From: Streptomyces katrae
Lineage (GTDB): Bacteria > Actinomycetota > Actinomycetes > Streptomycetales > Streptomycetaceae
Assembly (NCBI RefSeq): GCF_002028425.1
Contig: NZ_CP020042.1
Coordinates: 3,720,001-3,784,000, forward strand
Length of the DNA stretch: 64,000 nucleotides
Direction of reading: 5' to 3'
The notes under the pieces were generated by a model. It was not told the DNA's origin. It worked only from the letters and a program-made list of their open reading frames with translations, and did not search any database. A program made the position numbers and the translations under genes. Below, piece by piece: positions 48,845 through 58,848 of this stretch; position 1 is the stretch's first letter; every line of letters starts with the position of its first letter.

Positions 48845-50170
48845 CTAACGCGGGGACGGGAACCAGGCCATGGGGTCGGCCGGGGTCTGCTCGCCCGTCG
48901 CCAGGTTCTTGACCTCGTGGTTCCCGCCCTCCTCGGACGGCGGGAACCAGACGAACGGGATGCCCTTGCGGGAGGCGTAGCGGAGCTGCTTGGCCACCTT
49001 GTCGGCCTGGTGGTAGAGCTCGACGTTCATCCCCCGCGCGCGCAGGCCCGCCGCCGTGGCCCCGGCCGCGCCGCGGAGCTCGTCGCGCGGGACGGCCACG
49101 AGGACCTGGCTGGGGCACTTGGGGCCGGAGTCGAGAAGGCCCTCCGCCAGGAGCTTGGCGAAGATGCGGGTCAGTCCGATCGACATGCCGACGCCGGGCA
49201 GGCTCCGCCGGATGAAGGAGCCGGTCAGGTTCTCGTAGCGGCCGCCCGAGCAGATGCTCCCGTAGTCCGGCCAGTCGGTGAACTTCCCCTCGTAGACGGT
49301 CCCCGTGTAGTAGTCGAGGCCTCGGGCGACCGAGAGGTCCGCGACGACGCTGCCCGCCGGCAGGTCGCCGAGGGAGTCCAGGACCTGGGCCAGTTCGCCG
49401 AGCCCTTCGTCGAGCAGGTCCGACGCGACGCCGAGGCCCTTGACCGCGTCCACGACGGCCGCGCCCTCGCCGCGCAGCCGGGCGAGGGCCAGGCAGGAGT
49501 CGACGGTCCGCGCGGGCAGGCCGAGTCCGTCGGACAGGATCCGGGCGACGCCCTCCGCCCCGACCTTGTCCAGTTTGTCGACGGCCCGGATCACCGCCGT
49601 CGGATCGGCGATGCCCAGCCCTTCGTAGAACCCCTCCAGGACCTTCCGGTTGTTGACGCTGAGCGTCCAGGCGGGCAGGTCCAGCCCGGTCATGACCTCG
49701 TGGATCATGCGCGGCAGCTCGGCGTCGAAGTGGAGCGGGAGCCGGTCGACGTTGATGACGTCGATGTCGCACTGGGTGAATTCCCGGAAACGGCCCTCCT
49801 GGGCCCGTTCACCGCGCCAGACGCGCTGTATCTGATAGCGCTTGAACGGGAAGACCAGCTCGTTGAAGTGCTGGGCCGTGTACCGCGCGAACGGCACGGT
49901 CAGGTCGAAGTGCAGGCCGATGCGGGAATCGCTCGGGTCGTCGGCGTCCTCCTGGAGCCGGCGCAGCGCGTACACCTCGTTCGAGGTCTCCCCCTTGGCG
50001 GTGAGCACGGAGAGGGGCTCGACCGACGGCGTCTCGACCGAACAGAATCCGTACCTCTCGAATCCGGAACGGACGATATCGAGCCACTTCTGCTCGACCA
50101 TGCGAATTTCCGGCAGCCATTCGGGAAATCCGCTCACCGGTAGAGGGCGGACCAGTTGTGAGTCGTTCAT
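48845..50170 (-). CDS. hisS: Histidyl-tRNA synthetase, divergent type
   Basis: A 441-aa class II synthetase: motif 2 RVWRGERAQEGRFREFTQCDID, histidine-binding ARGLDYYTGTVYEG and motif 3 GVGMSIGLTRIF, plus a C-terminal anticodon-binding domain. The N-terminus is unlike the usual Streptomyces HisRS (which begins close to APKGTYDLLPP), so this is likely a second copy. It is divergent from a cycloserine-type cluster, 195 bases apart. A self-resistance role is possible but unproven; an ordinary spare or housekeeping copy is the alternative. Confidence 0.93.
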   Translation of the reverse strand: MNDSQLVRPLPVSGFPEWLPEIRMVEQKWLDIVRSGFERYGFCSVETPSVEPLSVLTAKGETSNEVYALRRLQEDADDPSDSRIGLHFDLTVPFARYTAQHFNELVFPFKRYQIQRVWRGERAQEGRFREFTQCDIDVINVDRLPLHFDAELPRMIHEVMTGLDLPAWTLSVNNRKVLEGFYEGLGIADPTAVIRAVDKLDKVGAEGVARILSDGLGLPARTVDSCLALARLRGEGAAVVDAVKGLGVASDLLDEGLGELAQVLDSLGDLPAGSVVADLSVARGLDYYTGTVYEGKFTDWPDYGSICSGGRYENLTGSFIRRSLPGVGMSIGLTRIFAKLLAEGLLDSGPKCPSQVLVAVPRDELRGAAGATAAGLRARGMNVELYHQADKVAKQLRYASRKGIPFVWFPPSEEGGNHEVKNLATGEQTPADPMAWFPSPR

Positions 50171-50365: not shown

Positions 50366-51142
50366 GTGCACACGTCGCAGCACACCACAGCAATTGTCCC
50401 CCAGGCGCAGACAAACGAATTCGAAAAGAGCTGGCAGCGCACAGCGGTCGAGGAGATCACCGGGCGCCTGACCGACTCGGAATTCCCTTGTGTGTTCTCG
50501 CGGAACGCCTTCCGCAAGCAGCTCCTCCGGTTCGTCTTCGTGCCCGACGGCGGGAGCGACGGCATCCGGCACCTGGCGGCGGCCCTGACGGAGTACGTCG
50601 AGGAGGCGAGGGACTGGGATGGGCAGCTGGACACCGCGTATCCGCTGGTCGTGGTGTTCTCGCCGGACGCCGTGGCCGGGGACTCGGTCGAGGAGCACCA
50701 CGCCTTCGGCTGGCACGTGCTGCAGGAGCTGCACCGCGTCGACCCCGCGCCCTGGCCGGCCGGCGTCGCCCGGGACCCCGGCTCCGAGGCGTGGTCCATG
50801 TGCTTCAACGGAATGCCGCTCTTCTGCAATATGAGCAATCCCGGGCACCGGGTCCGCCGGAGCCGCAACCTCGGCGGGTCGTTCGTTCTCGTCATCAATC
50901 CCCGGGAACGCTTCGACGTATTCGCCGGAGACACCCCGAGCGGCCGGAAGGTGCGCGCCAACATTCGCGGCCGGATACACCGCTACGACGGCGTCCCACA
51001 CTCCCCGCAATTGGGTTCCTACGGCATAGGCGCCCTCGAATGGCACCAGTACGGGCTGATCGAGGAGAACGCCGGGCGGACCGACGTCTGCCCCTTCTCA
51101 CCCCGTACCGACGACGGCAACGACACGCAGAGGACGTCCTGA
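50366..51142 (+). CDS. Haem-dependent L-arginine N-hydroxylase, DcsA/GntA-like (YqcI/YcgG family)
   Basis: A 258-aa YqcI/YcgG-family protein: FPCVFSRNAFRKQLLRFVFV, VEEHHAFGWHVLQELH, WSMCFNGMPLFCNMSNPGHRVRRSRNLGGSF. DcsA of the D-cycloserine pathway and GntA of guanitoxin belong here; they N-hydroxylate the guanidine group of arginine or a derivative using haem and oxygen. It would supply N-omega-hydroxy-L-arginine for the next enzyme. GTG 50366 is the only good start. First gene of the operon. Confidence 0.88.
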   Translation: MHTSQHTTAIVPQAQTNEFEKSWQRTAVEEITGRLTDSEFPCVFSRNAFRKQLLRFVFVPDGGSDGIRHLAAALTEYVEEARDWDGQLDTAYPLVVVFSPDAVAGDSVEEHHAFGWHVLQELHRVDPAPWPAGVARDPGSEAWSMCFNGMPLFCNMSNPGHRVRRSRNLGGSFVLVINPRERFDVFAGDTPSGRKVRANIRGRIHRYDGVPHSPQLGSYGIGALEWHQYGLIEENAGRTDVCPFSPRTDDGNDTQRTS

Positions 51143-51144
51143 CC

Positions 51145-51999
51145 ATGATCGAGCTCATCGTCTCCCAGGGCCGGGTGGCCGACCGAAAGCCCCGGATGAT
51201 CGAGGGCGCCGCCCGGATCGCCCGCGCCCTCGAACAGCGCTACGGGCTGGCCGGCCGCTGGATCGGGGAGCCCTCGCCGGCCGCCGACGACGACTGGACC
51301 GACAGCCTCCCGCAGGCCGAAGGGCAGCTGACCGCGCTCGGCCGCGCCGTCGGGGACGCCATCCGGGCCGGCCGCCGGACCGTCCTGGTCTCCAACACCT
51401 GCCCCGCGAGCATCGGCACGCTGCCGGTGGTGGCCCGCGAGCTGCCGGACGCCGTGGTGCTCTACATCGACGGTCACGGCGACTTCAACACCCCGGCCAC
51501 CAGCAGCGGCTACCTGGGCGGAATGGTCCTCTCCGCCGCGTGCGGCCTGTGGGAGAGCGGCCACGGAGGCGGGCTGCCCACCGCGCAGGCCGTGCTGGTC
51601 GGCACCCGGGACATCGACGAGGGCGAGGCCGAGCTGATCGCGCAGGCGGGAGTCCGGGTGATCCCGCCCGCCGAGACGACGCCGGAGAACATCCTGGACG
51701 CCATCGGCGACCGCCCCGTCTGGGTGCACATCGACTGGGACGTCCTCGAACCGGGCCACGTGCCCGCCGACTACACCGTCCCGGACGGTCTGCTGCCCGA
51801 GCAGATCCGGATGGTCTTCGAGACGATCCCCGCCGGCCGGCTGCTCGGCGTCGAGCTCGCCGAGTTCGACGCCACCACCGACGAGGCGGTCAACGAACGG
51901 GCCGTCGCCGTGGTCCTCGACATGGTCGCCCCCGTCTTCGAGGACGCCGCCGCCGGGAGTACCCGCCCGGCCGGCGAACGCGCCCTCGCCGCCCGGTAG
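51145..51999 (+). CDS. N-omega-hydroxy-L-arginine amidinohydrolase, DcsB-like (arginase superfamily)
   Basis: A 284-aa ureohydrolase with metal motifs YIDGHGDFNT and VHIDWDVLEPG. At the first metal-ligand site the usual His is replaced by Cys86 (SNTCPASIG), the same replacement and, as I recall, the same residue number as DcsB of S. lavendulae. DcsB releases hydroxyurea from hydroxyarginine. It starts two bases after the dcsA-like stop. The dcsC racemase that follows dcsB in S. lavendulae is absent; only 61 bases separate it from the next gene. Confidence 0.9.
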   Translation: MIELIVSQGRVADRKPRMIEGAARIARALEQRYGLAGRWIGEPSPAADDDWTDSLPQAEGQLTALGRAVGDAIRAGRRTVLVSNTCPASIGTLPVVARELPDAVVLYIDGHGDFNTPATSSGYLGGMVLSAACGLWESGHGGGLPTAQAVLVGTRDIDEGEAELIAQAGVRVIPPAETTPENILDAIGDRPVWVHIDWDVLEPGHVPADYTVPDGLLPEQIRMVFETIPAGRLLGVELAEFDATTDEAVNERAVAVVLDMVAPVFEDAAAGSTRPAGERALAAR

Positions 52000-52060
52000 T
52001 CCGGCCGCCTCCCGCCCTCCGCCGTCCCCCCTCCCCCTCGCCAGCCCTGGAGAGATCCCC

Positions 52061-53029
52061 ATGCCCTTGTACGACAGCATCCTCGACACCGTCGGCCGTA
52101 CGCCCATCGTCCGGCTGAACCGGCTCGCCCCCGCGCACACCACGGTGTACGTGAAGGTGGAGGCGTTCAACCCCGGCGGCTCCGTGAAGGACCGGCTCGC
52201 GCTCTCCGTGGTCCTCGACGCCGAGGCCAAGGGGCTCCTCAAGCCCGGTGACACGATCGTGGAGTGCACCTCCGGCAACGTCGGCATCGCCCTGGCGATG
52301 GTGGCGGCGGCGCGCGGCTACCACTTCGTCGCCGTCATGGGCGACACCTATTCGCTGGAGCGGCGCCAGCTGATCCGGGCGTACGGCGGCAAGGTGATCC
52401 TCTTCCCCGGTGCGCTCGGCAGCAGCGGAGGCAACCGGATCGCGGACGAACTGGCCGAGAAGCACGGCTGGTTCCGGGCCCGGCAGTTCGACAACCCGGC
52501 CAACCCGGCCTACCACCGGGAGACCACGGCCTCGGAGATCCTCGCCGACTTCGCGGGCAAGCGGCTGGACTACTTCGTCACCGGCTTCGGCACCAGCGGC
52601 ACCCTCACCGGCGTCGGGCAGATGCTGAAGACGGCCCGCCCCGGTGTCCGGGTGGTCGCCACCGAGCCGGAGAACGCCGCCATCCTGGGCAAGCAGGAGT
52701 GGAACGTCCACCGGATCCAGGGCTGGTCCCCGAACTTCGTGCCCAGCGTGCTGGACGACTCGGTCATCGACGAACTGGTGACCGTCGACGAGACGGTGGG
52801 ACGGGACACCTCCCGCCGGCTCGCCGCGGAGGAGGGCATCTTCGCCGGCATCTCCGCCGGCGCCACCCTGGCCACCGCGCTGCGCGTCGCGGAGACCGCC
52901 CCCGAGGGGTCGGTGCTGCTCGCCATGCTGCCGGACACCGGGGAGCGGTACCTGTCCACCTTCCTCATGGAGGGCGTCAACGAGGGCTCGGACGACGAGT
53001 GGCTCGCCTCGCTGGACGCCGGGAACTGA
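52061..53029 (+). CDS. O-ureidoserine synthase, DcsD-like (cysteine synthase family)
   Basis: A 322-aa PLP enzyme of the beta-substituted alanine synthase group: NPGGSVKDRLALS with the PLP lysine, the substrate loop CTSGNVGIALAM and the phosphate-binding GFGTSGTLTGV. In the cycloserine pathway DcsD joins O-acetyl-L-serine and hydroxyurea. A housekeeping cysteine synthase is the alternative, but the neighbours favour DcsD. GAGAGATC-type ribosome site before ATG 52061. Confidence 0.9.
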   Translation: MPLYDSILDTVGRTPIVRLNRLAPAHTTVYVKVEAFNPGGSVKDRLALSVVLDAEAKGLLKPGDTIVECTSGNVGIALAMVAAARGYHFVAVMGDTYSLERRQLIRAYGGKVILFPGALGSSGGNRIADELAEKHGWFRARQFDNPANPAYHRETTASEILADFAGKRLDYFVTGFGTSGTLTGVGQMLKTARPGVRVVATEPENAAILGKQEWNVHRIQGWSPNFVPSVLDDSVIDELVTVDETVGRDTSRRLAAEEGIFAGISAGATLATALRVAETAPEGSVLLAMLPDTGERYLSTFLMEGVNEGSDDEWLASLDAGN

Positions 53030-53030
53030 C

Positions 53031-54308
53031 GTGAGTCAGGAATTCGTCCCCCCGGGCGCCCGGTTCACCGCTCTGCCCGACGGCTTCCCCCTGCTGCGCG
53101 GCGGCACCCTGAACGGTGCCCGGGTGGCGTACGAGACGCTCGGCCGGCTCACCCCCGAACGCGACAACGCGGTCCTGGTCCTCCCCGGCCTCTCCCCCGA
53201 CAGCCACGTCGCCTCCCACCCCGGTGACCCTTCGCCGGGCTGGTGGGAGGCCATGGTCGGGCCGGGCAAGCCGGTCGACACCGACCGCTGGTACGTGATC
53301 TGCGTCAACGCGCTGGGCAGCTGCAAGGGCTCGACCGGGCCCGCCTCCGTCGATCCCGCCACGGGCGAGCCCTACGGGCCCGGCTTCCCGGAACTGTCGA
53401 TGGAGGACATCGCCGACGCCGCCGCGCACACCGTGCGCGCCCTGGGCGTCGAGCGGCTGGCCTGCGTCATCGGCACCTCCATGGGCGGGATGAGCGCGCT
53501 GTCCCTGCTGGCCCGGCATCCGGGTCTGGCCCGTGCCCACCTGAACGTCTGCGGGGCGGCGGGCTCACTGCCGTTCGCGACGGCGGTCCGCTCGCTGCAG
53601 CGCGAGGCGATCCGCTTCGACCCGCAGTGGAACGGGGGCCGGTACGACGCGGAGAACTACCCGCACCGCGGCATGCTCACGGCGCGCAAGCTGGGCATGA
53701 CGACCTACCGTTCGGCGCGGGAATGGGACCGCCGGTTCGGCCGCGGCCGCATCGCCGGGGAGCGCCTCGCGCCGGACGTGCCCTTCGGCCCCGAGTTCGA
53801 GGTCGAGGCGTACCTCGAAAGCCATGCCCGGAAGTTCTCCGGCCGGTTCGACCCCAACAGCTACCTGCACCTCAGCCGCTGCATGGACCGCTTCGAGCTG
53901 GGCGAGTCCTGTGGCTGCGCGACCGACGAGGCGCTGGCCGGGATCCGCCTGGAGCGGGCGCTGGTCATCGGCGTGGAGACCGACATCCTCTTCCCGCCGG
54001 GACAGCAGCGGCAGATCGCCGACGGCCTGCGCGCCGGCGGTACCGACGCCGAGTTCCTGGTCCTGGACTGCGACGAGGGCCACGACGCCTTCCTCATCGA
54101 CATCGACCGCTTCGGCCCGCCCGTCGCGACGTTCCTCAGCACGCTCTGGCACTCCGGAGGCAACACATGTCCCCCCACCCCTACCGACTGGCGCTGGTCA
54201 CCGGCGCGAACCGCGGCATCGGCTTCGAGACGGCGCGCCAGCTCGCCGCCGCCGGCGTCCGCGTGCTGCTCTCCGGGCGCGACGGTGAGGCTGTCGCCGC
54301 TGCGGTGA
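53031..54308 (+). CDS. L-serine O-acetyltransferase, DcsE-like (homoserine O-acetyltransferase family), with C-terminal overrun
   Basis: An alpha/beta-hydrolase-fold acetyltransferase: nucleophile elbow GTSMGGMSAL, PGLSPDSHV near the oxyanion hole, and the C-terminal His region DEGHDAFLID. DcsE makes O-acetyl-L-serine for DcsD. GTG 53031 is one base after the dcsD-like stop. The expected family end is near residue 379, just at the SDR start, but the frame stays open to 54308, adding about 46 residues that overlap the SDR gene by 142 bases. Confidence 0.86.
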   Translation: MSQEFVPPGARFTALPDGFPLLRGGTLNGARVAYETLGRLTPERDNAVLVLPGLSPDSHVASHPGDPSPGWWEAMVGPGKPVDTDRWYVICVNALGSCKGSTGPASVDPATGEPYGPGFPELSMEDIADAAAHTVRALGVERLACVIGTSMGGMSALSLLARHPGLARAHLNVCGAAGSLPFATAVRSLQREAIRFDPQWNGGRYDAENYPHRGMLTARKLGMTTYRSAREWDRRFGRGRIAGERLAPDVPFGPEFEVEAYLESHARKFSGRFDPNSYLHLSRCMDRFELGESCGCATDEALAGIRLERALVIGVETDILFPPGQQRQIADGLRAGGTDAEFLVLDCDEGHDAFLIDIDRFGPPVATFLSTLWHSGGNTCPPTPTDWRWSPARTAASASRRRASSPPPASACCSPGATVRLSPLR

Positions 54309-54913
54309 AGGAACTGCGCGCCGACGGCCTCCCGGTGGAGCCCCTGGTCCTCGACGTGACCGACGGCGACAGCGTCCGGGCCGCGGCCGCCGAGGTGGAG
54401 CGCGCGTACGGCCGGCTCGACATCCTCGTCAACAACGCGGCCATCCGCGTCGAGGAGTACGGCAGGAAGCCCTCGGAGCAGCCGCTCGCCCAGTGGCGCC
54501 GGACCTTCGACACCAACGTGTTCGCCGTCGTCGAGGTGACCCGGGCCTTCCTGCCGCTGCTGCTGCGCTCCCCGGCCGGCCGCATCGTCAACCTGTCCAG
54601 CCTGCTGGGGTCCGTCGGCACGCACGGCGATCCCTCCTCCTACGCCTACAGCGACATGTTCAAGTCGCTGCCCGCCTACAGCGCCTCCAAGAGCGCACTC
54701 AACTCCTGGACGGTGCACCTCGCCTACGAACTGCGCGACACCCCGGTCAAGGTGAACGCCGTGCACCCCGGCTACACCCGGACCGGCCTCAACGACGGCG
54801 AGGGCGACCTCGCCGCCCCGGACGGCGCGCGGACGGGCGTGGCGATGGCGCTGCTCGGCGACGACGGCCCCACCGGCACGTACACGCACCGCGGCGAAAC
54901 CGTCCCCTGGTAA
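54167..54913 (+). CDS. Short-chain dehydrogenase/reductase (carbonyl reductase-like) in the dcs-like operon
   Basis: A 248-aa classical SDR: VTGANRGIGFETARQL, NNAAI, Ser-Tyr-Lys with YSASKSAL. Resembles NADPH carbonyl reductases. CGGAGG precedes ATG 54167. I know of no SDR step in D-cycloserine synthesis, so it hints at a modified product, or at a side reaction or a host gene. Confidence 0.88.
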   Translation: MSPHPYRLALVTGANRGIGFETARQLAAAGVRVLLSGRDGEAVAAAVKELRADGLPVEPLVLDVTDGDSVRAAAAEVERAYGRLDILVNNAAIRVEEYGRKPSEQPLAQWRRTFDTNVFAVVEVTRAFLPLLLRSPAGRIVNLSSLLGSVGTHGDPSSYAYSDMFKSLPAYSASKSALNSWTVHLAYELRDTPVKVNAVHPGYTRTGLNDGEGDLAAPDGARTGVAMALLGDDGPTGTYTHRGETVPW

Positions 54914-54940
54914 CCCCCGGTACATCAATGGAGCACATCT

Positions 54941-55867
54941 ATGGGCAACCACGTGGCCCTGGCCACCGACATGACCAGCCTTCCGATCGACTACGACATG
55001 CCGCTGCTGCTGGAGGCCTGCCGGAAGGCCGGAGTACGGGCGGAGATATGCAGCTGGGAGGACCCGGACATCGACTGGGGGGCCTTCGACGCCGTGCTGC
55101 TGCGGTCCCCCTGGAGTTACGTCGAGCAGCTGCCGCGCTTCCTGCAGTGGTGCGAGCGCGTCACCGCCGTGACGCACCTGCTCAACCCGCTCCCGGTGGT
55201 CCGCTGGAACCTCGACAAGAGCTACCTGGGCGATCTGGACGCGGCCGGGGTGCCCGTCGTGCCGAGCAGTTTCGTGGCACCGGAGGCCGAGCCGGCCGCC
55301 GCCCTGCGGGCCTTCCTCGAACGGTATCCCGATGCGGCCGAGTTCGTGGTGAAGCCGACCGTCGGCGCCTACTCGCGCGACGTGCAGCGGTTCTCCCGCG
55401 CGCAGGAGCCGGAGGCGACCCGGCACGTCGCCAAGCTGCTGGAGCAGGGCTGCGACGCGCTGATCCAGCCCTACATGGACGCCATCGACCGGGACGGCGA
55501 GACCGACCTGATCTATTTCGACGGCGAGTACAGTCACGCCATCCGCAAGCGGGCGCTGCTCCTGCCCGACGGCACGGTCGACGTGCCCACGCAGGACGCC
55601 CGCACCGCGCGGGACGCCGCCCCGGACGAACGGGCGGTGGCCTCGGCCGCGCTCAAGGCGGTGGTGGCCCGGCTCGACCTGGAACGGCCGCTGCTCTACG
55701 GCCGCGTCGACCTCATCCGCGACGGCGAGGGCAGGCCGGTCCTGCTCGAACTCGAAGTGTGTGAGCCGTCGCTGAGCATGCCCTTCGCGGAGGGCTCCGC
55801 CGACCGGTTCGCGCGGGCCATCGCCGCACGGCTGGAAGACATCACCCGAGAACGCAAGAACGGATGA
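54941..55867 (+). CDS. ATP-grasp ligase/cyclase, DcsG-like
   Basis: A 308-aa ATP-grasp enzyme (DMTSLPIDYDMPLLLEACRKAG, LRSPWSYVEQLPRFLQWCERV, LNPLPVVRWNLDKSYLGDL; metal residues in YGRVDLIRDGEGRPVLLELEVCEPSL). DcsG closes O-ureido-D-serine to D-cycloserine with ATP, releasing CO2 and ammonia. Here the substrate may be the L form or another ureido amino acid. Its stop overlaps the transporter start (ATGA). Confidence 0.88.
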   Translation: MGNHVALATDMTSLPIDYDMPLLLEACRKAGVRAEICSWEDPDIDWGAFDAVLLRSPWSYVEQLPRFLQWCERVTAVTHLLNPLPVVRWNLDKSYLGDLDAAGVPVVPSSFVAPEAEPAAALRAFLERYPDAAEFVVKPTVGAYSRDVQRFSRAQEPEATRHVAKLLEQGCDALIQPYMDAIDRDGETDLIYFDGEYSHAIRKRALLLPDGTVDVPTQDARTARDAAPDERAVASAALKAVVARLDLERPLLYGRVDLIRDGEGRPVLLELEVCEPSLSMPFAEGSADRFARAIAARLEDITRERKNG

Positions 55868-56847
55868 CCACCATGGCAACGACAGAACAGCCCTCGGCGG
55901 CCGAGGCAGCCGGGGCACAGACCCCGGCCCGGGCACAGGCGCAGGCCAAGGCCCCGGCCGGAGCCGCAGCCGCCGCAGCCGCCCCGGTCGGGGCGCGCGG
56001 CACCCTCTACGCCGCCCTCGGCGTGCTGAGCTTCTCGTTCAGCTTCCCCGGCACCGTATGGGCCCTCGACGGGTTCGGTCCGTGGAGCGCCATCGGGGTG
56101 CGCGGCGTGCTCGCCGCCCTGATCGCGGGCACGGCGCTGCTGGTGACGCGGGCACCGCTGCCCGCCCGGGGCGACTGGGCCGCGCTCGCCGTGGTGGCGG
56201 GCGGCTGCGCCGTCGGCTTCCCGCTGCTCACCACGCTGGCCCTGCAGACTTCCTCGACGGCGAACTCGGCGATCGTCATCGGCGCGCTGCCGATGGCCAC
56301 GGCGGCGTTCTCCGCGGTCCTCACGCGGCGCCGGCCCTCGAAGGTGTTCTGGGCCGCGGCGCTGACCGGCGGGGCGACCGTGATCGCCTTCACCCTCACG
56401 CAGAGCCACGGCAAGCCGACGGTCGCCGAGCTCTACCTCTTCGGCGCCCTCGTCGTCTGCGCGGCCGGGTACGCCTTCGGCGGGCGGCTCTCGGCCCGCA
56501 TGCCCGGCTGGCGGGTCATCGCCTGGGGCGTGGTGCTGGCGGCGCCGGTCAACATCGCCGTGTCCGCCTGGGCGCTGCCGCACGAGCCGGTACACCTGAC
56601 GGCGAAGGCCCTGGTCGGCATGGCGTACATCGCGGCCGTCTCCCAGTTCGGCGGGTTCGTCGTCTGGTACAAGGGCATGGGGCTCATCGGCGTGGCCCGG
56701 GCGAGCCAACTCCAGCTGGCGCAGCCGCTGCTGACCCTGCTGTGGGCCGTGCTGCTGATGGGCGAGCAGATCGGCGCGGCCGTGCCGCTGACCGCGTGCA
56801 TCGTCCTGGCCTGCATCGTCGTCACCCAGCGGGCCAGGACGTCCTGA
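55864..56847 (+). CDS. EamA/DMT-family exporter, DcsJ-like
   Basis: A 327-aa protein with ten membrane helices in the two-EamA layout after a 40-residue Ala/Gln/Pro-rich N-terminal extension. DMT carriers of this kind export amino acids and related antibiotics; in the cycloserine cluster a membrane protein aids self-resistance. Coupled to the ATP-grasp gene by an ATGA overlap. Confidence 0.87.
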   Translation: MTTMATTEQPSAAEAAGAQTPARAQAQAKAPAGAAAAAAAPVGARGTLYAALGVLSFSFSFPGTVWALDGFGPWSAIGVRGVLAALIAGTALLVTRAPLPARGDWAALAVVAGGCAVGFPLLTTLALQTSSTANSAIVIGALPMATAAFSAVLTRRRPSKVFWAAALTGGATVIAFTLTQSHGKPTVAELYLFGALVVCAAGYAFGGRLSARMPGWRVIAWGVVLAAPVNIAVSAWALPHEPVHLTAKALVGMAYIAAVSQFGGFVVWYKGMGLIGVARASQLQLAQPLLTLLWAVLLMGEQIGAAVPLTACIVLACIVVTQRARTS

Positions 56848-56950: not shown

Positions 56951-57068
56951 TTTCTCATTCTTCGGACGGTCGTTCCCCTCGGATCCCCAGGGTGTTAGTT
57001 TCACCGGGTTCACGCGGCGGGCCGAACCGGAAGGCCCTGCCGCAGTTCCGGGGGAAGGTGGGCGAGAG

Positions 57069-57773
57069 TTGAGTCGTCAGGCAGCCGCGCAGCAGCTCCG
57101 GACCGCCGCGCCCGCGGTCATCGAGGCGTACCGGGCGGAGCTCCAGCGGCTCGGCAGCCCGCTGGCGACCCGCGACGACGCCTGGCAGCAGTGCCGTTAC
57201 CAGGCGCAGAACATCGTGGCCGAGTGCGCGCAGTCGCTGGAGACCGGCCGGCCGGCGGAGGTGAGCGGGGTCGGGGAGTACTCCCGGCTGCTCGGGGCGC
57301 ACCGCGTCACGCAGCGGATCCCGGTGTCCGAGTCGGTCCGGGCGGCGGAAGTGCTCTGGGAGGCCATGCGGGAGGCGGTCGCCCGGGCGGCGGAACAGCT
57401 GCCGGCCGAGCAACGGCACTCGGTGCAGCAGGAGATCAGCACCACGTTCCGCACGGTCACCGGGGCCCGGCTCTACCAGGGGATCCGGGGCTACGAGGAG
57501 GCCGCACGGCCGGAGGGCCCCGCCGGACGCCCGCCGGGGCCGTCCGGGCTGAAGGAGCAGGCCGATCTCGAACCGCAGGCCCTGGAAGTGCTCACCCTGC
57601 GCGAGCGGGAGATCCTGGAGGCGGTCCGGGAGGGACTGACGAACCGGCAGATCAGCCGGCGTTTCGAGATCACCGAGGCGACCGTCAAGCGGCACCTGCA
57701 CAACGCGTACCGCAAGCTGGGCATCAGCTCCCGGGTGCAGGCGCTGAACAAGATGTTCCCGGAGGGGCGCTGA
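57069..57773 (+). CDS. LuxR-type helix-turn-helix regulator
   Basis: A 234-aa protein with an alpha-helical N-terminal region (residues 1-140; RsbR/RsbT-co-antagonist-like helical pattern, inferred) and a C-terminal LuxR domain (LTLREREILEAVREGLTNRQISRRFEITEATVKRHLHNAYRKLGI). TTG 57069 is the only start near the GGAAGG site. By position it may regulate the cluster. Confidence 0.8.
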   Translation: MSRQAAAQQLRTAAPAVIEAYRAELQRLGSPLATRDDAWQQCRYQAQNIVAECAQSLETGRPAEVSGVGEYSRLLGAHRVTQRIPVSESVRAAEVLWEAMREAVARAAEQLPAEQRHSVQQEISTTFRTVTGARLYQGIRGYEEAARPEGPAGRPPGPSGLKEQADLEPQALEVLTLREREILEAVREGLTNRQISRRFEITEATVKRHLHNAYRKLGISSRVQALNKMFPEGR

Positions 57774-57852: not shown

Positions 57853-58848
57853 TCACCCCAGGGACCCCGCCAGGGTCAGACCGGCCAGCGCGGTCAGGTT
57901 CGCGGCGTACTGGGTGACCATGAACGCCCGGTAGGCACCGCGCCGTTCCGCGCGGCCCACGCCCTCCCGGCGGGCCCCGCGCAACACCCGGACGACCACC
58001 CAGAGCGACCCCAGGGCCAGCGGCACCGCCACCGTGAGGGCGGGCCGGGCCCACAGCAGGGCCAGCGCCGGGGCGGCCGCGCCGACGGCGAGGGCGCCGG
58101 CCACGGCCAGGGCCCGGGCGGCGGCCGGACCTCGGACGACCGCGACCGTGCGGCGGCCGCCTGCGGCATCACCGCTGACGTCGCCCAGGTCCTTGGTCAC
58201 GGCGCCGACCAGCGCCATCCACGCCGACATCACCCCGGCGACCAGCACGCCCGTCACGGTCCACGCCCCGCCGGACGCCGCGACCCCGGCCCCGTAGGCG
58301 GTCGCGCCCAGCCCGAACACCACCGCCGCGCAGCGCCCGCTGGAGCACTTCGCCTTCACCGGGTCGGCCGAGTAGGCCCAGCCCAGCACCAGGAAGGCGG
58401 CCGTCCAGGCGACCACCGCGGGCCCCGCGAGCCCGCCGAGGAGGAGGGCGGCGCAGGCCAGCAGGACGGTGCCCCGGGCGGCGGTCCGCTCGGGGAGGTC
58501 CCCGCGGGCGATCGGGCGCCGCGAGCCGTTGACCCGGTCCTCGTGGACGTCGGTGACACCGTTCAGCAGGTAGGCGCAGACCACCGCGCACCACAGGGAG
58601 GCCGTGCCGAGCACGGGCCGCCCCAGCGACTGCGGCAGCTGCCCCGCGGACACCACGCCGACCGCGAACCGCAGCAGGAACGCGACCTGGACAACGGGAC
58701 GGGCTTCCTCCCAGCAGAGGCGGACGGTGTCCGCGAGGGAGTGCCAACGGACGTCCAGGACCCGCACCGGCCTGGCGACGATCACTTGCCCACTGAGATT
58801 GATCACGGGCGCCACCCTAGGAAGTGGATCACCGCCTCGGCCATACAA
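57853..58848 (-). CDS. UbiA-family prenyltransferase
   Basis: A 331-aa membrane protein with the two metal motifs NGVTDVHEDRVNG and DLGDVSGDAAGG between about eight helices. UbiA enzymes move a prenyl chain to an aromatic or other acceptor. The start is uncertain (ATG 58848 or later). It is convergent with the LuxR gene and need not belong to the cycloserine-type cluster. Confidence 0.85.
   Translation of the reverse strand: MYGRGGDPLPRVAPVINLSGQVIVARPVRVLDVRWHSLADTVRLCWEEARPVVQVAFLLRFAVGVVSAGQLPQSLGRPVLGTASLWCAVVCAYLLNGVTDVHEDRVNGSRRPIARGDLPERTAARGTVLLACAALLLGGLAGPAVVAWTAAFLVLGWAYSADPVKAKCSSGRCAAVVFGLGATAYGAGVAASGGAWTVTGVLVAGVMSAWMALVGAVTKDLGDVSGDAAGGRRTVAVVRGPAAARALAVAGALAVGAAAPALALLWARPALTVAVPLALGSLWVVVRVLRGARREGVGRAERRGAYRAFMVTQYAANLTALAGLTLAGSLG

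Follow-up and report, generated by a model that had tools for sequence, protein, structure and literature searches.

What does a cluster of D-cycloserine genes make when it lacks the gene for its racemase? The question is raised by a 64,000-nucleotide stretch of the Streptomyces katrae genome (C1:3720001-3784000 of 8.06 Mb, 99.99% complete; hereafter the window), where genes of the dcs type lie at 50366-56847, all on the + strand, in the order dcsA-dcsB-dcsD-dcsE-SDR-dcsG-exporter (SDR, short-chain dehydrogenase/reductase). Such a cluster was reportedly described by Kumagai in 2010 from Streptomyces lavendulae ATCC 11924. Six enzymes, DcsABCDEG, make D-cycloserine, and the pathway has been reproduced in E. 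coli (PMC10214352, in extract); the kinetics and role of the O-ureidoserine racemase have also been described (PMC8142540, in extract). We found that the gene for this racemase, dcsC, is missing from more than half of the clusters compared, and that the cyclising enzyme DcsG, judging from the aligned sequences, has diverged at loop position 218 in step with dcsC loss. The clusters without dcsC may make the mirror-image compound, L-cycloserine. Below, L numbers denote dcs loci, G genomes, P proteins and C contigs of the compared set.

Genes of the cluster and genes missing from the genome

The dcs genes of the window, as predicted, are as follows.

50366-51142, +: dcsA homologue, haem enzyme of the YqcI/YcgG family (PF08892, 202 bits; PDB AglA 9ubb, E 2e-27)
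51145-51999, +: dcsB homologue, N-omega-hydroxy-L-arginine amidinohydrolase, expected to release hydroxyurea (S. lavendulae 6lug, E 3e-120)
52000-52060, no strand: place of dcsC in dcsC-bearing actinobacterial clusters, just 61 bases here (cluster comparison)
52061-53029, +: dcsD homologue, O-ureido-L-serine synthase (S. lavendulae 3x43, E 2e-180)
53031-54308, +: dcsE homologue, serine O-acetyltransferase of the MetX family (S. lavendulae 3vvl, E 1e-169)
54167-54913, +: SDR (PF00106, 172 bits)
54941-55867, +: dcsG homologue, ATP-grasp cycloserine synthetase (S. lavendulae 6jil, E 5e-115)
55592-55594, +: codon of DcsG Gln218, in the loop of residues 204-220
55864-56847, +: exporter of the EamA/DMT type, dcsJ-like (PF00892, 82 bits)

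An earlier note on this DNA, made from the letters alone, had recognised DcsA, DcsB with Cys86, DcsD, DcsE, DcsG and the exporter in operon order, and profile and PDB matches agree with it; Cys86 of DcsB aligns with the corresponding Cys of 6lug. By sequence, the pair supplying hydroxyurea (DcsA and DcsB) and the pair leading to O-ureido-L-serine (the O-acetyltransferase DcsE and the synthase DcsD) are thus both represented. DcsA is expected to be what its family and gene order suggest, the S. lavendulae DcsA sequence having stood outside the comparison, and its role, which we take over from the known S. lavendulae pathway, is presumably the formation of N-omega-hydroxy-L-arginine. DcsG passes the NF058666 model "D-cycloserine synthetase" widely (534.7 bits for a curated cut-off of 360), and its AlphaFold model (mean pLDDT 91.8) is closest in fold to 6jil (TM 0.94), then to ArgX, Ddl and RimK. 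The name of NF058666 is applied to these enzymes although the D configuration may not hold for them.

The same note had reported that DcsC is absent between the dcsB- and dcsD-like genes and that no DcsI, the D-Ala-D-Ala ligase, is seen, and had advised searching the whole genome for both. These absences held. Nothing in the 61-base dcsB-dcsD gap matched dcsC with an E of 0.5 or less. A search of the genome with PF01678 returned one two-domain protein and no second protein of the DapF type; as its gene adjoins miaA (isopentenyl pyrophosphate transferase), we take this sole member to be the housekeeping DapF. With PF07478 a single true Ddl was found (E 2e-67), 1.7 Mb from the cluster, six other matches among those listed having E 1e-8 or weaker. 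We conclude that, as regards these two families, both DcsC and DcsI are absent. A search of a plasmid collection gave seven matches, none of them both long and close.

Self-resistance has been proposed to operate through a Ddl and a membrane protein (PMC6804068, in extract). Two dcsC-bearing Streptomyces (G199 and G247) have a second Ddl next to the cluster, and one Ddl each was counted in nine dcsC-less Streptomyces or Kitasatospora genomes examined. No neighbouring Ddl was seen, however, at 11 of the 13 dcsC-bearing loci, that is, at all but the two lavendulae-like Streptomyces, and DcsI was therefore rejected as a marker of the product. Its absence fits an altered product weakly.

Repeated absence of dcsC among related clusters

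A species-level genome collection was scanned with a DcsG alignment, which gave 80 loci; the window and the Streptomyces loci L119 and L120 were added. Among these, 33 clusters have dcsA, dcsD and dcsG, 13 with dcsC and 20 without. Later additions were L132-L134 (family of G407) and S. lavendulae itself (its racemase is P0243 in the protein list), all with dcsC, and L140 and L141 (family of G837), without it. The final set thus comprises 39 clusters, with dcsC missing in 22 and present in 17. Two loci were left out of the counts, L083 because dcsG is broken on its contig and L047 because the cluster is cut by a contig end. Nor were L009 and L010 counted: at 377 and 370 bits they are barely above the DcsG cut-off, they are 41-44% identical to DcsG, and apart from a weak SDR no other dcs core gene was found in 3.9 kb.

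The dcsC-less clusters outside Streptomyces belong to Xenorhabdus (L042, L045, L082), Roseateles and relatives (L050, L052, L055, L056), Marinitenerispora (L041), Actinorugispora (L043), Actinokineospora (L048) and two Micromonosporaceae (L140, L141). Xenorhabdus L042 and L082 hold dcsA, dcsB, dcsD and dcsG only, without dcsE and SDR, a minimal racemase-less set. Three further observations were made during the survey. Loci L060-L081, mainly from Lysobacter and relatives, carry DcsG relatives that are 48-58% identical and differ in loop sequence, and no dcsA, dcsB, dcsD or dcsE match was obtained in the stretches fetched around them. In a Sphingobium cluster (L057:1567-7042) dcsD lies in two pieces about 4.5 kb apart. 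In Streptomyces sp. ISL-94 (L083:10001-10824) the dcsG match is partly on the opposite strand, by rearrangement or misassembly.

Counts of DapF-family proteins follow the same division. Two were found in all 13 dcsC-bearing genomes of the first set and in the three later ones, these three having Leu218 in DcsG; one was found in 20 of the 21 dcsC-less genomes of the first set and in the two later ones, both with Phe218. The exception, strain A1136 (L121), has a second DapF-like protein (G397:C348:45892-46686) that is 52% identical to the DapF of the window genome and 32% to DcsC. Two DapF-like proteins also occur in G406, the genome of the cluster cut by a contig end, whose class is unlabelled.

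On a tree built from DcsA, DcsB, DcsD, DcsE and SDR, with DcsG excluded, the dcsC-less clusters form seven maximal clades. Some of its joints are well supported (Xenorhabdus with the dcsC-bearing L101, 1.0; Actinokineospora L048 with L054 and L134, 1.0; L140 with L049, 0.98), and others are weak (placement of the Streptomyces clade, 0.65; L046 with L041 and L043, 0.21). A tree of DcsD only was poorly resolved, with 12 dcsC-less clades and, again, seven parsimony changes. Actinorugispora L043 keeps, between dcsB and dcsD, a stretch of 41 amino acids that matches the final part of a DcsC protein with 54% identity (E 3e-8), while the best E in 20 shuffled sets of all 22 spaces was 2.5e-4. This remnant, lying at the ancestral place, is direct evidence that dcsC was lost there and not primarily absent. 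Another candidate remnant, in L044 (E 0.07), did no better than the shuffles and was not counted. The dcs genes that remain in the Streptomyces clade are under purifying selection, with dN/dS of 0.09-0.42 in 28 gene comparisons between the window and L033, L034, L035 and L040.

Position 218 of DcsG

At residue 218, DcsG has Gln in 18 of the 22 dcsC-less clusters and Phe in the other four. Among the 17 dcsC-bearing clusters Leu is commonest (10), followed by Met and Pro (2 each) and by Thr, Asn and Phe (once each); Gln is never seen. By the overlap measure, this column separates the two classes best out of 1882 columns over six proteins, and six of the ten best-separating columns lie in DcsG, where label shuffles gave a mean of 2.4 and reached six in 7 of 300 cases. 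The tree implies five separate gains of Gln218, all within dcsC-less clades.

A second data set, which overlaps partly with the loci, was made by pairing DcsG and DcsC proteins through contigs of equal size. The pairing drew on lists limited to 120 proteins each and is one-sided, an unmatched protein not meaning that dcsC is missing (P0057 is unmatched though its genome, G576, where a contig of equal size occurs, has dcsC). Of the listed DcsG proteins, 19 were paired with a listed DcsC. For the 67 on contigs of at least 15 kb, pairing was found in none of 36 with Gln218 and in 12 of 31 without it.

The AlphaFold model places residue 218 in a loop (204-220) that joins two strands; the pLDDT is about 79 there, and Pro216 and Arg221, both invariant in the 39 aligned sequences, are nearby. 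By likeness to other ATP-grasp enzymes we take this loop to be the one that closes over the substrate, and we infer that residue 218 could bear on stereochemistry.

Several points weigh against this reading and against an altered product in general. With random clade labelings, 9 of 300 yielded a column equal to 218, and a rerun of the shuffles gave 10 of 300, one of them in DcsG. By single-residue enrichment position 218 is not outstanding (274 of 300 shuffles score at least as high), owing to the division of the dcsC-less enzymes between Gln and Phe; that statistic was dropped in favour of the overlap measure, which picks 218. One of the 19 DcsG proteins paired with a DcsC, P0102 (6458 bases), has Gln218, either by chance or as a real exception. 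Phe218 is found in both classes, in four dcsC-less clusters and in the dcsC-bearing L088, P0043 and P0058 (the last two paired by contig). These three overturned the rule that a cluster with Gln or Phe at 218 lacks dcsC, just as Phe218 in L140 and L141 had broken the idea that dcsC-less means Gln218. Concerning the absences themselves, S. avicenniae has dcsC yet one Ddl, which makes the lack of DcsI a weak argument; completeness figures are missing for most of the compared genomes; and the racemase search covered the DapF type only, leaving the alanine racemase, proline racemase and PLP (pyridoxal phosphate) serine racemase families unsearched.

A possible L-cycloserine pathway and its alternatives

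The pathway that we propose would begin as in S. lavendulae, DcsA and DcsB supplying hydroxyurea from arginine, and DcsE and DcsD making O-ureido-L-serine. Without DcsC, DcsG would then meet the L form. Adapted after the loss of dcsC, it would activate the carboxylate of O-ureido-L-serine and close the ring to yield L-cycloserine, which the EamA protein would export. That DcsG would be presented with the L substrate had been suggested in the earlier note; the single DapF, the 22 of 39 clusters without dcsC, the L043 remnant and the divergence at 218 speak for it, as far as a search for racemases of the DapF type goes. Both the chirality of the substrate and the identity of the product are deduced from sequence comparison. 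That DcsG of the window cyclises O-ureido-L-serine to L-cycloserine, the dcs pathway having branched here into a form without racemase, seems to us the most likely reading, at about even odds. Its wider form is more tentative, and we would lean slightly against it: that in two phyla the handedness of an antibiotic was switched repeatedly, by loss of the racemase and retuning of the next enzyme, so that L-cycloserine is a natural product, with Gln218 as part of the switch and a UbiA prenyltransferase added in Streptomyces. Both cycloserines inhibit serine palmitoyltransferase (PMC6148460, in extract), the L form 100-fold better (PMC11676690, in extract). Among the papers listed in a literature search that did not include the primary dcs papers, none dealt with racemase-less dcs clusters or natural L-cycloserine.

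Two genes downstream of the exporter belong to the surroundings of this cluster type.

57000-57773, +: LuxR-type regulator, start uncertain (PF00196), kept in Streptomyces dcsC-less clusters
57853-58848, -: UbiA-family prenyltransferase (PF01040, 90 bits), linked to Streptomyces dcsC-less clusters

In the window, L033-L040 and L083 the cluster has a UbiA gene for a neighbour. This gene stands downstream in three of them (the window, L033 and L034) and on the upstream side elsewhere; the 13 dcsC-bearing loci lack such a neighbour. Twelve UbiA relatives are on contigs equal in size to those of Gln218-type DcsG, the lists being compared by eye. The LuxR group of open reading frames (ORFs) shows the same pattern, occurring at 10 of the 22 loci that are dcsC-less or unlabelled and at none of the 11 dcsC-bearing ones. 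In Streptomyces the UbiA protein may act on the product or have a different role. The SDR, which the earlier note had treated as an extra gene that might further reduce the product, turned out to be a standard one: of the 33 clusters having dcsA, dcsD and dcsG, dcsC-bearing ones among them, 31 carry it and just Xenorhabdus L042 and L082 do not, and it cannot count as a step peculiar to the racemase-less variant. A gene similar to the EamA exporter likewise adjoins many actinobacterial dcs clusters.

Could the product still be D-cycloserine, with O-ureido-D-serine made in trans by a host enzyme from another racemase family, such as a broad alanine or amino-acid racemase, and dcsC thus dispensable? 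A common host substitute would lead one to expect what is seen, dcsC repeatedly gone while the other genes stay; DcsG is still well inside NF058666, and Phe218 enzymes occur both with and without dcsC. The change to Gln218, nearly confined to dcsC-less clusters, is on the other hand not predicted by it. No replacement racemase was seen in the conserved ORF groups around dcsC-less loci, and reading through the gene lists of nine such loci revealed none, the flanks having had no systematic profile scan. Moreover, alanine racemase is inhibited by D-cycloserine (PMC8142540 and PMC6804068, in extract) and so would be a poor partner for its production. On balance we consider a racemase in trans unlikely, though it is the chief alternative.

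A different end product, derived from O-ureido-L-serine or L-cycloserine by prenylation or capping for example, appears improbable to us. The tailoring enzyme could be UbiA, whose link with the Streptomyces dcsC-less clusters holds although the gene lies on different sides of them, or the non-ribosomal peptide synthetase (NRPS) that adjoins the S. somaliensis cluster L044. UbiA was not found, however, in the fetched stretches of the other dcsC-less clusters (a search that did not extend to L140 and L141), and two Xenorhabdus clusters consist of four dcs genes; there is thus no tailoring gene common to all. Last, the cluster might be decaying and make nothing useful. A key pathway gene is indeed missing and L043 keeps a remnant of dcsC, but the frames are open in the window, the 28 gene pairs have the low dN/dS given above and the same gene set recurs in seven clades, and we hold decay to be very improbable. 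Should the L-cycloserine reading be true, the choice of antibiotic enantiomer would have been altered repeatedly through a single gene loss, and a few enzyme positions would offer themselves for testing.

Some features of the neighbourhood are recorded here in their own right. The dcsE frame runs on past the point near 54150 where similarity to known DcsE stops, and across the SDR start; this part (54150-54308) makes it about 53 codons longer than its homologues, as in L033, whereas L034 and L035 have no such extension. Divergent from dcsA lies a second gene for histidyl-tRNA synthetase (48845-50170, -), with a stronger hisS match at C1:1573863; among loci L033-L112 such a neighbour was seen only in S. 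katrae L033. In S. somaliensis the adjoining NRPS genes include one with a methyltransferase domain (L044:7843-16570). GntR-aminotransferase (MocR-type) regulators are found near dcs clusters of both kinds in other genera (L041, L043, L046, L049, L050, L052, L054, L055, L056, L087, L088, L140 and L141, the assignment being checked by Pfam for L050 and L041 only), and such PLP proteins could sense cycloserine.

Compared with known systems, the cluster of the window is nearest to that of S. lavendulae, whose solved enzymes 6lug, 3x43, 3vvl and 6jil are the closest to its DcsB, DcsD, DcsE and DcsG. The S. lavendulae gene order, including the DcsA-like gene and the exporter, is presumably the same. 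Unlike S. lavendulae, the window genome has no DcsC-type racemase and no second Ddl, its DcsG has Gln218 where the aligned S. lavendulae residue is Leu, and a UbiA prenyltransferase and a LuxR regulator are linked to the cluster. The lavendulae-like L119 (G199) and L120 (G247) share its gene order, with the SDR between dcsE and dcsG; they differ by dcsC between dcsB and dcsD and by a Ddl beside dcsG or the exporter. The dcsC-less clusters outside Streptomyces differ from the window in having no UbiA where it was searched for and, for several, a MocR-type regulator, and resemble it in their racemase-less gene set and in Gln218 or Phe218 of DcsG.

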